Source: an uncultured Clostridia bacterium | GTDB lineage: Bacteria > Bacillota > Clostridia > Christensenellales > Pumilibacteraceae | NCBI GenBank assembly: GCA_947589465.1 | Contig: CANQAE010000001.1 | Coordinates: 1-64,000, forward strand | Direction: 5' to 3' | Length of the DNA: 64,000 nt | Shown: one piece after another, positions 6,873 to 11,878 of the stretch | Position numbering within the stretch: position 1 is the stretch's first letter | How the letters are laid out: every line of letters begins with the position of its first letter | Notes under the pieces: model-generated | Told to the model about the DNA's origin: nothing | What the model saw: only the letters and a program-made list of their open reading frames with translations | Database searches by the model: none | Made by a program: the position numbers and the translations under genes

Positions 6873-7227
6873 TATTGCATGATTATGTGCGTTTCTTTGA
6901 AGTACATACTGCCGCCTTATTGCTTGTTTAGGGCGGTTTTTGAAGTCTTACCCTTGCGTTTTGCTTGATTATAGGTGGTTCTTTGTGATTCGTCGCCGCC
7001 GACTTTTGCGGGATTTAATGGAGTTTTTATTAGTCCCGCCTTCGCCGCCGTTTTGCATCTTCCCCGCTTGCTGTTTCTATATTTTCCTGTTTGCGAAACC
7101 GTAGCGGACAAATTATTTGTGAAGAAAATAGGCAAAATATAAAATCATAACTTATTACGTTTTGCCTCTTTCCACGTGCAACAAAAAGTTAATTCTATTT
7201 TTATAAGTTATGAAAACATAATTATAA
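6873..7227. other. Intergenic region, weak open frame only
   Basis: The plus strand shows a possible terminator (CCGCC 6912-6916, GGCGG 6932-6936, five T after). A 72-codon minus-strand frame (6917-7135) is basic and low-complexity and lacks a ribosome binding site; I do not accept it as a gene. Nothing else is recognised. Confidence 0.35.
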
Positions 7228-7266
7228 GATAAAAAGAAACCTGCGCTATGGCAGGGTTCTTTTTAT
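7228..7266 (-). terminator. Terminator at the end of the ferritin-like gene
   Basis: The stem pairs AAAGAA-CCTGC (7233-7244) with GCAGG-TTCTTT (7251-7262), with one mismatch, and is flanked by A- and T-runs on both sides. It overlaps the stop codon of the minus-strand gene. Confidence 0.7.
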
Positions 7267-8516
7267 CTTGCTATATCGGTGTTGTCCTCGGTTCGGTTGC
7301 GCAGTTCCTTTATTGGGTGCGGCGCCGTTTCGAAACGGTAATCCTCGCCGAATTCGCCTATATAACTGTTTATTACGTTGTGGCTGGCAACATATGAGGG
7401 CATCTTGTTTACCTGATTATTGTACTTAAAGAACTCGTAATCTTCGGGCAATTCGCTTACCTTGGTATAGTCTTCAAGAATAGCCGTATTGCGTATCGTC
7501 TTTGCCAGCACGTCCCGAACATATTGCTTGTTGCGGTCGGCATATTGATTGAAGGCGAGCAGTTCGGGGAATGTTCCCTCGCCTATCACTTCTTCGTAAT
7601 CCTTATTTTCGTACTGCGCAAGTAGCGTGCGTGCTTTTTGAAGGTGGCTGAGTTCTTGCGTAAGGCATTGTTCAAAGACTTTGCGAACGTTTTCGTCGGT
7701 TTCGTCGTTCATAAGGCTATAATAGAGATAGCACTCGGTATATTCGTGCATAAGCAGCCCTTCGAGCCAGGTGCAGTTGGTATCTATCAGCGAGCCGTAT
7801 TGAGATACGTGCTGTTCTTCTATCATCGCGATTTCCGTAAAAAGTTTGCGTCCCAGGTCGCTCGTATAGAAACTGCCCAAATTCATATAATAATTCATCG
7901 TCTGCTGTTCCGCGGCGGTAATTATCATTGTATTTAGTTTTGTAGCGAGCGTAGCCTTGTGCGCGTCTATATGCCTGCGTATATCATCATACGGATAGCG
8001 GTGCTCTGCGATAGTGGGTCTGCCCGGCATTATTTCAGTATAGCCGCCTACGAGCATTTCGCCTTTTTCGCCCTGTTCCATTTCCAATAAGTCCGAAAAT
8101 CTGTACAGGTGATCGAAATCTTCAAGTAGCGCAAAGTCGAGCGCCGAGCGCACATACTTATCTTTTTCAAGAAGCGCGAGATTTACCGTCAAATCTACCG
8201 CTAATTGCTCGTAACTTATGGTCACTTCGAGCAAATTTTCGTCTTTCGGTTTTAGCGACGTAAGTTTTTTTTGCTGCTGTTGCTCGCTTCGGCGCACTGC
8301 GGCGAGTTCTCGGCGCAAGTCGTTATTGTCGCAGTGGCGCGAAAATTGATGCCCGTACCAGACCGCTTCATATTCTGCGCCCGTAGCCAAAATTATGCGT
8401 ACTTTCGAATAGGGGTCAATTGCGTACTTATCGTACGGCTTTTGATAGATCTTTTTCCAATCTTCGTAGCACTTATCGATCTTTGGCGCTTTTTCATTAA
8501 ATGGATTAAAACTCAT
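7263..8516 (-). CDS. Ferritin-like four-helix-bundle protein, uncharacterised
   Basis: The 417-residue product is not one I can name. Its middle (about residues 185-310) has the exact spacing of a ferritin-like diiron bundle: a helix with glutamate (AAEQQTMNYY), a helix with ExxH (IAMIEEQHVSQY), a third with glutamate (MHEYTECYLYY) and a fourth with ExxH (LTQELSHLQKAR). I infer metal binding, perhaps oxidative-stress or iron related. The N-terminal ~180 and C-terminal ~100 residues match nothing I know. The ATG at 8516 has a strong GGAGGT site; upstream codons in the frame are AT-rich non-coding sequence. Monocistronic. Confidence 0.75.
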   Translation of the reverse strand: MSFNPFNEKAPKIDKCYEDWKKIYQKPYDKYAIDPYSKVRIILATGAEYEAVWYGHQFSRHCDNNDLRRELAAVRRSEQQQQKKLTSLKPKDENLLEVTISYEQLAVDLTVNLALLEKDKYVRSALDFALLEDFDHLYRFSDLLEMEQGEKGEMLVGGYTEIMPGRPTIAEHRYPYDDIRRHIDAHKATLATKLNTMIITAAEQQTMNYYMNLGSFYTSDLGRKLFTEIAMIEEQHVSQYGSLIDTNCTWLEGLLMHEYTECYLYYSLMNDETDENVRKVFEQCLTQELSHLQKARTLLAQYENKDYEEVIGEGTFPELLAFNQYADRNKQYVRDVLAKTIRNTAILEDYTKVSELPEDYEFFKYNNQVNKMPSYVASHNVINSYIGEFGEDYRFETAPHPIKELRNRTEDNTDIAR

Positions 8517-8736
8517 ATTATACCTCCGTAAATCCAATATACTTTGATTTTTGGCTTTTTGAGCGGTAAATATACTGAATTTTGCCAAAAATAAGTATAT
8601 GAATTTATAACTTAACTCAAAATGGATATTTTTCCGCCGACTGAAAATCTCCCTCAAAACCCGAAAGTTATTAAATTATAATGTTTATTTTTTTCAATCA
8701 TATGACAGTTCTTACGGAAGAAAGGACAAAAATAGA
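8517..8736. other. Left part of the AT-rich gap between the ferritin-like gene and parB
   Basis: Contains the ribosome binding site and presumed promoter of the ferritin-like gene (minus strand, a TATATT about 30 nt upstream of its ATG). No gene is visible. Confidence 0.35.
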
Positions 8737-8737
8737 G

Positions 8738-8793
8738 TTATCAACAATTTTATTAACAATTATACATACACTTATACACATATGGTGGAAAAA
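8738..8793. other. Array of DnaA-box-like 9-mers (candidate origin element)
   Basis: Four same-strand 9-mers lie at 8738 (TTATCAACA), 8750 (TTATTAACA), 8760 (TTATACATA) and 8772 (TTATACACA); a fifth on the other strand is GGTGGAAAA at 8785. They differ from TTATCCACA at one or two positions and repeat every 10-12 bp, about one helical turn. They sit in AT-rich DNA next to parS-like sites. An oriC role is an inference. Confidence 0.35.
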
Positions 8794-8836
8794 TCGGTCA
8801 GTTTTTCCAAGGGGAAGATTTTGAAAGATTTTTTGA

Positions 8837-8852
8837 TGTTTCATGTGAAACA
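8837..8852. promoter_or_regulatory. parS-like palindrome 1
   Basis: TGTTTCATGTGAAACA is a 16-bp near-palindrome one base from the Firmicutes parS form TGTTTCACGTGAAACA. It lies 180 bp downstream of the parB stop and is the expected ParB loading site. Confidence 0.8.
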
Positions 8853-8927: not shown

Positions 8928-8943
8928 TGTTTCATGTGAAACA
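8928..8943. promoter_or_regulatory. parS-like palindrome 2
   Basis: An identical copy of TGTTTCATGTGAAACA, 91 bp after the first, between parB and site 1. Two identical copies beside parB make chance unlikely. Confidence 0.8.
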
Positions 8944-9028: not shown

Positions 9029-9898
9029 TTAATTGTTTTTTGTTTCGAGCGTATCTAAAAGATCTGCTATTCTGTCCAAATCGTCGCGATTGTAATAGTC
9101 TATGTATATGCGTCCTTTCTTATCGTTGCCCAGCACCGATACTTTTGTTGCAAATGCGCGTTGCATTCTTGCCACAAGGTCTTTCAGTTCGATACTTTGC
9201 TCCTGTTTTACCTTGGCTTTGGGGCTACGGTATGATTTTACAAGTTCCTCGAACTTTCGTACGCTCATTTTGCCGTCTGCACCTTTCAATGCGAGCGTAA
9301 GTTGAGCCTCAGGGTCGTCAAGCGAAATCAGCACCTTTGCGTGTCCTGCCGAAAGTCGCCCATTGGAGATGAGGTCGATTACGGTAGGGGGGAGGGTCAG
9401 CAAACCGATAGTGTTTGTTACCACCGTACGGCTTTTGCCTATTCTTTCAGCCACCTGCTCTTGCGTGTAATCGCACTCGTCCATAAGTTGCTTTATTGCG
9501 GTTGCCGTTTCAATCGGATTGAGATCTTCGCGCTGAATGTTCTCAATAAGAGAAATTTCGCGTATCTGTTCGCGCGTATAATTACGCACTATTGCAGGAA
9601 TTGTTTTTAGTCCCGCGCGTCTTGCCGCTCGCCATCTGCGTTCGCCTGCAATGATCATATAGCGTTCGCCTTTTGCAACCAATATGATCGGGGTGATTAC
9701 TCCGTGCATACGAATAGAGTTTACGAGTTCGGTCATTGCTACCTCGTCGAATACTTTTCGCGGCTGCTCCTCGTTGCGGTCGATCTTGTCCAATGCGATT
9801 TCGGTAGCCGAAGATTCCGCGCTTATTGCCTCGTCGTCGTCCAGATCGAAGTCGCCCAAAAGAGCGCCAAGTCCTTTGCCTAATCCTTTCATTGCCAT
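9029..9898 (-). CDS. parB: Chromosome partitioning protein ParB (Spo0J)
   Basis: ParB loads on parS as a CTP-dependent clamp and organises the origin region. The 289-residue protein begins with the family sequence KGLGKGLGALLG. The CTP-binding ParB/Srx domain has EQPRK, the ENIQREDLNPIE box and the arginine-rich GERRWRAARRAG. A helix-turn-helix follows (YTQEQVAERIGKSRTVVTNTIGLL), then a C-terminal dimerisation segment. AGAGGTGA precedes the ATG at 9898. The usual upstream partner parA (soj) is missing: the gene has its own promoter and tspO lies next. Confidence 0.95.
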   Translation of the reverse strand: MAMKGLGKGLGALLGDFDLDDDEAISAESSATEIALDKIDRNEEQPRKVFDEVAMTELVNSIRMHGVITPIILVAKGERYMIIAGERRWRAARRAGLKTIPAIVRNYTREQIREISLIENIQREDLNPIETATAIKQLMDECDYTQEQVAERIGKSRTVVTNTIGLLTLPPTVIDLISNGRLSAGHAKVLISLDDPEAQLTLALKGADGKMSVRKFEELVKSYRSPKAKVKQEQSIELKDLVARMQRAFATKVSVLGNDKKGRIYIDYYNRDDLDRIADLLDTLETKNN

Positions 9899-9928: not shown

Positions 9929-9957
9929 ATTATACTATTTTTTATTACGTACGTCAA
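9929..9957 (-). promoter_or_regulatory. Promoter of parB
   Basis: On the minus strand TTGACG (9952-9957) and TATAAT (9929-9934) are 17 bp apart; the predicted start is about 25 nt before the ATG. This supports parB as a single-gene transcript without parA. Confidence 0.65.
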
Positions 9958-9998
9958 CAAAATTTATATAAAAATATTAGTTATGTAATCATAATTTA

Positions 9999-10026
9999 GA
10001 AAGGCGCAAAAAATGCGCCTTTTTTA
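9999..10026 (+). terminator. Hairpin with T-run
   Basis: AGGCGCA (10002-10008) pairs with TGCGCCT (10014-10020), followed by TTTTTT on the plus strand and by TTTCT on the minus strand. No plus-strand gene precedes it; it may end a long tspO transcript reading leftward. Confidence 0.5.
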
Positions 10027-10044
10027 AGGCGCACCGATAAAAAA

Positions 10045-10060
10045 TGTTTCACGTGGAAAT
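10045..10060. promoter_or_regulatory. Degenerate parS-like half-site
   Basis: TGTTTCACGTGGAAAT has a perfect left half and core of parS, but the right half carries three mismatches. It lies 147 bp upstream of parB. Confidence 0.35.
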
Positions 10061-10085
10061 ATTGCGCTTTCGGCGGCTAGTCATA

Positions 10086-10181
10086 CTACCGAGTTAATGC
10101 CAAACGCGCTACCGAATTAATTAGCCGCGAAGCCGATTTCGTTTGAACGGACTACCGAATTATGCAACCGTCTACCGAGTT
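10086..10181. repeat. Four copies of CTACCGARTT
   Basis: Direct repeats start at 10086, 10109, 10152 and 10172, all in the same orientation: CTACCGAGTTAAT, CTACCGAATTAAT, CTACCGAATTATG and CTACCGAGTTTTT. Spacings of 23, 43 and 20 bp are near multiples of two helical turns. The stretch lies between parB and tspO and contains no gene. Confidence 0.6.
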
Positions 10182-10249
10182 TTTGACTAACCGTGAAACT
10201 TGTTAATGCCGAGCGTGCCGAGATTATAATCGAAACGCAGAAGGCAAAG

Positions 10250-10750
10250 TCAGGCGTTGAGAACGATCACCATAACCGTTTGGAAAGCGGTGAATAACAG
10301 CCAACCCCAATAGGGCAAGAGCAATACCGAACTTAACGGCTTAAAGAAGAAGCCAATGGTGACGAGCGAAGTTACGACCGCCGCCATAAGAGCGTTAATA
10401 ACGAAGGCGACGGTAAAATCGACGTTGAAGAACAGAAAAGGCCAGAGAAGATTGAGGGCGAACTGAACGCCCCAAAGGACGATCGCAGCCGTTTTCATGG
10501 ACTGTTCGGCGGGCGAAAGCGGCACGCTCGTAATGATGAGGAACAAAGAAATTCCGATCAGGACGTAAAGGACCGTCCAAATTACCGAGTACGCCCAATC
10601 GGGCGGAGCGAAAGAGGGCATATTGATGCCCTTGTTGTCGTAGCCGCCGCTCAAAAAGCCGCTCAAAAAGCCGGCTGCCAAGGTTGACAGCACGCACACG
10701 AAAAACGTCAAAACGTTAGAATGTTTTTTTAATGTAACCGAATCTTGCAT
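10250..10750 (-). CDS. tspO: TspO/MBR-family membrane protein
   Basis: A 166-residue, five-helix membrane protein of the TspO (tryptophan-rich sensory/translocator) family, which binds porphyrins and related ligands. Family features are MPSFAPPDWAYSVIWTVLYVLIGIS near residues 50-75 (shown here in part: PSFAPPDWAYSVIW) and ALNLLWPFLFF. Five hydrophobic segments fit the fold. The frame can be extended upstream by 53 codons, but that part runs through GGCGCATAACTTTTT repeats and is not protein-like, so I start at the ATG 10750. No clear Shine-Dalgarno. Its physiological role here is unknown. Confidence 0.88.
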   Translation of the reverse strand: MQDSVTLKKHSNVLTFFVCVLSTLAAGFLSGFLSGGYDNKGINMPSFAPPDWAYSVIWTVLYVLIGISLFLIITSVPLSPAEQSMKTAAIVLWGVQFALNLLWPFLFFNVDFTVAFVINALMAAVVTSLVTIGFFFKPLSSVLLLPYWGWLLFTAFQTVMVIVLNA

Positions 10751-10771: not shown

Positions 10772-10940
10772 AAAAAAGTTATGCGCCTGTTTTCTTCGGC
10801 GCGGACGTAAAAAATCGTAAAACCGCCCCAAATTTGCGTGCGGCGCGGGCGCAAAAAGCAAATAAACGTCTAAAAAGTTATGCGCCATATTTTTGTCGCG
10901 CTCGCCCAAAAGCGTGAAACCGTCTAAAAAGTTATGCGCC
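10772..10940. repeat. Three copies of AAAAAGTTATGCGCC between tspO and uppP
   Basis: The 15-mer occurs at 10773-10787, 10872-10886 and 10926-10940. The last two are extended to an identical 20-mer, CGTCTAAAAAGTTATGCGCC (10867-10886 and 10921-10940). All are in one orientation, immediately upstream of tspO (minus) and touching the uppP stop. They could be operators or a small repeat element. Confidence 0.6.
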
Positions 10941-11735: not shown

Positions 11736-11777
11736 CGTTTTGACAAAAGGCAAGAGCGTTTTGACAAAAGGCAAGAG
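11736..11777. repeat. 21-bp perfect tandem duplication
   Basis: Two adjacent identical 21-bp units (11736-11756 and 11757-11777) share the core TTTTGACAAAAGGCAAGAG. They lie in the divergent gap between uppP and purE. Each carries TTGACA on the plus strand, but no -10 box follows at the right distance. Confidence 0.75.
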
Positions 11778-11878
11778 CGGCGTTGTTTTACCACGAAAAT
11801 TTTTCCTCTTTGACGCCATTCGAGCCGAAAACGCTCCCGTAAATTTTTGCCTGTCGCAACTTTTATATATATATTCGC

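Follow-up and report, generated by a model that had tools for sequence, protein, structure and literature searches.

Between parB and tspO of an uncultured Clostridia bacterium lies a noncoding gap with a cluster of short direct repeats. The window, by which the whole stretch of 64,000 nucleotides analysed here is meant, contains four exact copies of CTACCGARTT, all on the plus strand and starting at 10086, 10109, 10152 and 10172, which gives start-to-start spacings of 23, 43 and 20 bp. The original prediction had described four copies in the same orientation within 96 bp, at these spacings, between parB and tspO and without a gene over them. All of this was confirmed: the copies are exact, the neighbouring genes carry the expected Pfam matches, no listed open reading frame of at least 80 aa runs across 10086-10181 and no frame is free of stops over the 100 bp from 10086. 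The features of the locus are the following.

9029..9898, minus strand: parB (PF02195, PF17762)
9929..9957, minus strand: sigma-70-type parB promoter, 11/12 consensus positions
10008..10034, minus strand: apparent intrinsic terminator of the tspO transcript, hairpin and T run in the sequence
10041..10053, plus strand: left arm of the outer inverted repeat (pair I5), 13 nt, 85% complementary
10074..10083, plus strand: left arm of the bracketing inverted repeat, CGGCTAGTCA, 2 nt from r1, 9/10 complementary
10086..10095, plus strand: repeat r1, CTACCGAGTT, exact match
10109..10118, plus strand: repeat r2, CTACCGAATT, exact match
10130..10139, plus strand: degenerate copy half-way in the r2-r3 gap, weak (6/10)
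10152..10161, plus strand: repeat r3, CTACCGAATT, exact match
10172..10181, plus strand: repeat r4, CTACCGAGTT, exact match
10184..10193, plus strand: right arm of the bracketing inverted repeat, TGACTAACCG, 2 nt from r4, 9/10 complementary
10192..10204, plus strand: right arm of the outer inverted repeat (pair I5), sharing 2 nt with the inner right arm
10215..10224, plus strand: degenerate copy beyond r4, weak (7/10)
10250..10750, minus strand: tspO (PF03073), its 3' end toward the array

When the four copies are aligned, nine of the ten core columns are invariant and the tenth contains only A or G, so that the pair identity of the core amounts to 0.93 (0.25 expected). In the 14 columns on each side it is 0.30 to the left and 0.31 to the right, with 0.25 expected by chance. 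Position -4 relative to the core is C in all four copies, and AA is present at -6/-5 in three of them. For the helical phasing that had been proposed the evidence is suggestive only: the four sites show a phase coherence of 0.80 at a period of 10.5 bp, with a Rayleigh estimate of p ~0.08. The array is furthermore bracketed by an inverted repeat; among the 63,400 stretches of 96 bp that the window offers, 56 (~0.09%) have arms of at least 9/10 within 0-4 nt of both ends. The outer inverted repeat is collinear with this inner one.

Read along the minus strand, uppP comes first, followed by tspO (stop at 10250), the array, the hairpin with its T run (10034-10008), the parB promoter and parB. Due to this order of tspO stop, array and apparent terminator, the array is best assigned to the tspO unit, as its long untranslated 3' portion, and not to the parB promoter. 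The apparent terminator hairpin folds at -14.5 and -15.2 kcal/mol, the hairpin and T run can be read on the plus strand as well, and a consensus scanner did not list 10008-10034. No promoter-like site adjoins the array; the nearest is that of parB, 129 bp from the closest repeat and beyond the apparent terminator. A similar TTGAC...TATAAT is present by eye upstream of parB in the congeners.

The motif in its own genome and in relatives

The genome to which the window belongs (G000; 1.3 Mb in 56 contigs, 96.6% complete) contains seven further exact copies of CTACCGARTT, every one of them single, and the window holds only the four of the array. The genome-wide search that had been suggested as a check thus points to a clustering beyond chance. 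Four of the seven single copies were examined (L005-L008) and all lie within long open frames, which gives no sign of a regulon. At one mismatch, 17 matches are present in the window versus 8.2 expected. Clusters were scanned in 464 kb of the genome, consisting of the window and 400 kb sampled. A strict scan (four copies within 96 bp and a composition filter) returned three clusters compared to none in 30 Markov-resampled copies, and a loose scan returned four places. The other two strict clusters (L130 and L138) lie within open frames, 216 and 114 codons long, and the array is therefore the only one of the three without an open frame over it. Allowing two mismatches brought up nine noncoding clusters, where a single shuffle had one; repeats of this looser kind are therefore not uncommon.

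In each of the seven congeners the identity of ParB is 83-86%. Nevertheless, TspO is absent by tblastn from the parB loci of all seven, one of which reaches just 372 bp upstream before the contig ends. The tspO gene was located in six congeners, in five of them beside uppP, and the genes downstream of it differ: an acyl-carrier-protein-like gene in G002-G005 (by eye) and an AAA ATPase (PF13635) in G006. No exact CTACCGARTT copy was found at the parB loci of the seven congeners or at the tspO loci of the six, and the conservation in close relatives that had been named as a test did not appear. Within the order, the two-copy pattern occurred in one of 396 genomes, which is the window's own; this draw took in the congeners G003, G004 and G006 and left out G001, G002, G005 and G007. 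Since the parB-tspO junction itself is not conserved, these relatives are unable to test function within the window's species. For the predicted operator array this leaves a divided picture, in which the internal pattern of core, flanks and bracket speaks for it and the comparison with relatives against it. The array can be regarded as real and lineage-specific, and possibly as operator-like.

Candidate binding sites and known noncoding repeats

The reading that we favour, at a probability of roughly 0.4, is a lineage-specific cluster of putative protein-binding sites that belongs to the known class of 20-22-nt noncoding repeats. Here, each 10-bp CTACCGARTT would represent one site for a DNA-binding protein, and copies placed about two helical turns apart, roughly on one face of the DNA, would allow several monomers or a filament to bind cooperatively. 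The bracketing inverted repeat would form the edges of the element, and binding may locally control the read-through from tspO to parB or the structure of the DNA. This reading draws on the inverted repeat 2 nt outside both array ends and on the position as the only strict cluster in 464 kb outside an open frame. Furthermore, the phased arrays that immediately precede the genes of a family of ATPases, which are described below, show that such an architecture can accompany promoters. On the other side, the array is present in none of the relatives examined, no promoter-like site adjoins it, its spacing is irregular, and short arrays in spacers can come about without having any role, for which an array behind guaB was compared.

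The nearest described kind are the 20-22-nt noncoding tandem repeats of bacteria reported by Subirana and Messeguer, which are species specific and carry a short conserved core (PMC8161180, PMC6749651). For conserved-core arrays of about two turns a protein polymerising on the DNA was proposed (PMC8161180). The array has in common with this class its noncoding position, a distance close to two turns of the helix, a short core conserved from repeat to repeat and its species specificity. It differs in having four strict copies only, at irregular spacing, in its inverted-repeat bracket and in the absence of a call by a standard tandem-repeat finder, since Tandem Repeats Finder gave no row at 10086-10181 even at score 30. 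A 2020 paper by the same authors in the Journal of Bacteriology reportedly deals with a 22-nt repeat class. Short direct repeats about 21-22 bp apart, as in the window, are also known from LytTR-type double direct-repeat operators, the consensus of which is not known to match CTACCGARTT. Taken alone, the array is a modest addition to the noncoding repeat class.

A decayed minisatellite without function is somewhat less probable. In this case slippage would have duplicated a unit of ~21-22 bp within a 3' spacer that changes fast, and the copies would have diverged afterwards. Degenerate copies were tested at the predicted positions 10130, 10194 and 10215 and reached a summed score of 18/30, for which the joint P of 0.015 is weak, being post hoc with positions picked with the data in view. 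If the weak copy at 10130 is counted, the spacing would read 23, 21, 22, 20. Short tandem duplications do occur in the window, for example a perfect one of 21 bp upstream of uppP (11736-11779). Moreover, the same genome contains a second array of the same anatomy, which follows the guaB stop, precedes an apparent terminator and has five copies of a 19-bp unit with the core GTTTGATTGTA (L131, G000:C5, ~703-795). By eye it is found in none of the five congeners with a guaB 3' end, of which one region covers only ~220 bp; the guaB ends of two other congeners are incomplete and stand outside this count. What speaks against the minisatellite is the sharp boundary of the repeats, since a uniform decay of a longer tandem unit would not yield four near-perfect cores beside near-random linkers, as well as the missing call by Tandem Repeats Finder. 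The nine invariant columns next to near-random flanks rather argue for separate constrained sites, as in the binding-site reading.

Phased arrays before AAA_14/DUF4143 ATPase genes

Three copies of TACCGARTT within short gaps were found at 65 loci in the collection genome_contigs and at 13 in viral_contigs. Two scrambled patterns gave 4 and 8 loci in viral_contigs, and a cross-phylum conservation of the motif was dropped because the pattern matches are, by these controls, largely background. The arrays of exactly 23 bp all lie upstream of an ATPase gene (6/6). Five precede AAA_14/DUF4143 genes at 38-115 bp, and the sixth (L087) lies 179 bp from an ATPase_2/DUF234 gene; the calls were made by Pfam for L048, L066, L068, L089 and L087 and by a purpose-built profile for L077. 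Ten arrays have a spacing of ~33 bp. Seven of them adjoin a DUF4143-type gene as assigned by the purpose-built profile, with the array of L090 overlapping the gene start as called, one has no such gene and two are near a contig end, where the gene may be lost from view. By the same profile, no TACCGARTT array of other spacing adjoins a DUF4143-type gene.

Promoters of AAA_14/DUF4143 ATPase genes are associated with helically phased direct-repeat arrays, at the following loci.

First set: L151, L158, L187, several of L200-L225, L048, L066, L068, L077, L089
Second set: L150, L154, L163, L164, L186, L190
Third set, in Bacteroidota: L057, L069, L075, L082, L091, L093

The spacing is exactly 23 bp in the GPK[W/G]CGKT subfamily and 32-33 bp in some other subfamilies, and no array was seen in several. 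The array cores vary from gene to gene, and the end of an array usually coincides with the -35 box (by eye). At least three regular copies within 350 bp upstream are present in 14 of the 48 DUF4143 genes taken from genus and family, compared to a single downstream array (L154) and none in 69 shuffles. This set excludes L152, a short partial match, and includes L163 and L170, divergent genes with one common array. Ten of the 14 arrays have a spacing of 23 or 32-33 bp, the other four of 16, 22, 40 and 42 bp. Order-wide relatives of one subfamily, taken as one per genome from 56 matches, have arrays in 15 of 30 cases. For genes with a GPK[W/G]CGKT-like Walker motif (type A) the proportion is 17 of 28 after removal of duplicates, and all 17 arrays are spaced at exactly 23 bp; without four Bacteroidota loci picked by motif, at least three copies are present in 14 of 25, again all at 23. 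The other open frames in the same table, which was filtered by length and Walker motif and may contain a few ATPases of other families, have arrays in 11 of 44 cases, seven at 32-33 bp.

As a control, neighbouring genes were analysed, and 15 of 136 have at least three regular copies within 300 bp upstream. Eleven of these are the same arrays, 25-178 bp before the DUF4143-type gene of the locus. The other four (L203 twice, L205 and L221) lie ~67-74 bp before the ATPase match of the locus, the gene start of which was missed by the open-frame filter. The control is therefore not independent of the arrays. Among open-licence papers, no description of DUF4143/DUF234 promoter arrays was found. The number of DUF4143 matches per genome ranges from 0 (G000 and G003) up to 8 (G006 and G007).

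The array in the window resembles these promoter arrays in that a core recurs as direct repeats between linkers that have diverged, and TACCGARTT is the core in some Bacteroidota. An orphaned relic, in which the ATPase gene was lost and its cognate array left beside tspO, is nonetheless unlikely. It would account for the spacing of 23 between r1 and r2 and for the Bacteroidota arrays of the same core and spacing before such genes. However, the common core lends no independent support, because these loci were found by that core. In the congener G006 a DUF4143 gene (L013 178-1454 / L165, G006:C10) ends ~46 bp from the tspO stop, which is the place of the array, but the subfamily of this gene showed no 23- or 33-bp array. 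Whereas DUF4143 arrays have a fixed spacing, a usual end at the -35 box and an ATPase gene after them, the window array with its 23/43/20 falls outside both exact spacings, has no -35 box or promoter-like site at its end and is flanked by tspO and parB, with no ATPase gene directly downstream. In addition, PF13635 (DUF4143) has no match in this nearly complete genome; AAA_14 (PF13173) has five, two of them over the cut-off. If the relic were true, the array would belong to a wide and apparently undescribed ATPase system, each member with its own phased array and a gene-specific core. The association itself is of more use than the array alone, since part of the noncoding repeat class thereby gains a candidate binding partner and can be put to the test at once.

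The tspO transcript and the probable origin

The position between stop codon and apparent terminator would also suit an RNA element of the tspO 3' untranslated region, in which AAYUCGGUAG repeats held in an inverted-repeat stem serve for docking of a protein or small RNA. The inverted repeats are nested, and the minus-strand centroid fold retains the stem formed by the bracketing pair. Yet neither strand of the region folds with an unusual energy (z 0.50 and -0.07), and over the array every Rfam family stays below its gathering score, which makes such an element quite improbable.

Upstream of tspO, three copies of AAAAAGTTATGCGCC (10773, 10872 and 10926, plus strand) look array-like by eye. 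With at most two mismatches, CTAAAAAGTTATGCGCC is found in the genome only at these repeats before tspO, and by eye a common origin of CTACCGARTT and CTAAAAAGTTATGCGCC is suggested. Within the uppP-tspO gap, 30 bp (10833-10862) match G000:C11:13013-13042 at 93%; the latter sits inside an open frame of 477 aa, in the same reading frame by eye.

On the other side of parB, a parS pair at 8837-8852 and 8928-8943 lies just beyond the gene. Each of the eight genomes of the genus (the window and L030-L037) retains such a pair past the end of parB, at a distance of 90-93 bp, and 15 of the 16 sites deviate from the consensus TGTTTCACGTGAAACA at one position, the remaining one at two. The parS-like sites of the window are at 8837, 8928 and 8958, with a 13/16 site at 10045. 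By eye, the sequence beyond the pair is rich in TTATCCACA-like DnaA boxes in some congeners; in the window two one-mismatch boxes, TTATCAACA and TTATACACA, are present there, and such boxes occur elsewhere in the window too. From 10 kb onward the GC skew stays positive throughout, and oriC is probably located at ~8660-8830, beside the parS pair and near the change in GC skew. The parS pair and the DnaA-box-like sequence are 1.2-1.4 kb from the array. Of the origin-associated repeat that had been proposed, the nearness to a probable origin stands; the array itself lies outside of what is conserved there.

An origin or ParB element was rejected by conservation and motif, the parS pair being conserved and the array not. 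An element of partition or replication that ParB, DnaA or the Rep protein of a plasmid would recognise is very improbable even with parB adjoining, the probable origin ~1.3 kb away and the parS-like site at 10045, because the conserved pair lies beyond the other end of parB, the array is absent beside the highly similar ParB of the congeners and contains no match to the parS consensus within 3 mismatches and no DnaA box within 1 mismatch (10086-10181), and Rep_3 (PF01051) has no match in the genome. In other genomes, three TACCGARTT arrays (L050, L056 and L085) adjoin Rep_3 genes and are probably iterons. They share with the window array direct repeats of 21-22 bp with TACCGARTT and differ in their near-exact spacing and in the adjacent Rep_3 gene. 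A plasmid or phage origin of the region was likewise rejected, as 9985-10250 has no DNA match at E 0.01 in the genome or the viral collection.

The palindrome GTTATNATNTCATAAC is a further element of this region in the genus. Of its matches with at most one mismatch, 15 of 16 are on parB contigs, within ~2.2 kb, some of them being one place counted on both strands. None is present in G006, and the sole match of this quality in the window's genome is elsewhere than at parB; degenerate copies with 2-3 mismatches are found in the window at 7136, 7207, 8596, 8667 and 9980. Studies of the origin would do better to target the conserved parS pair, the DnaA-box-like sequence and the palindrome than the repeats. 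Beside the probable origin, a protein of 417 aa is encoded at 7263-8516 on the minus strand; it has no Pfam match, and by eye a similar start is present in several congeners.
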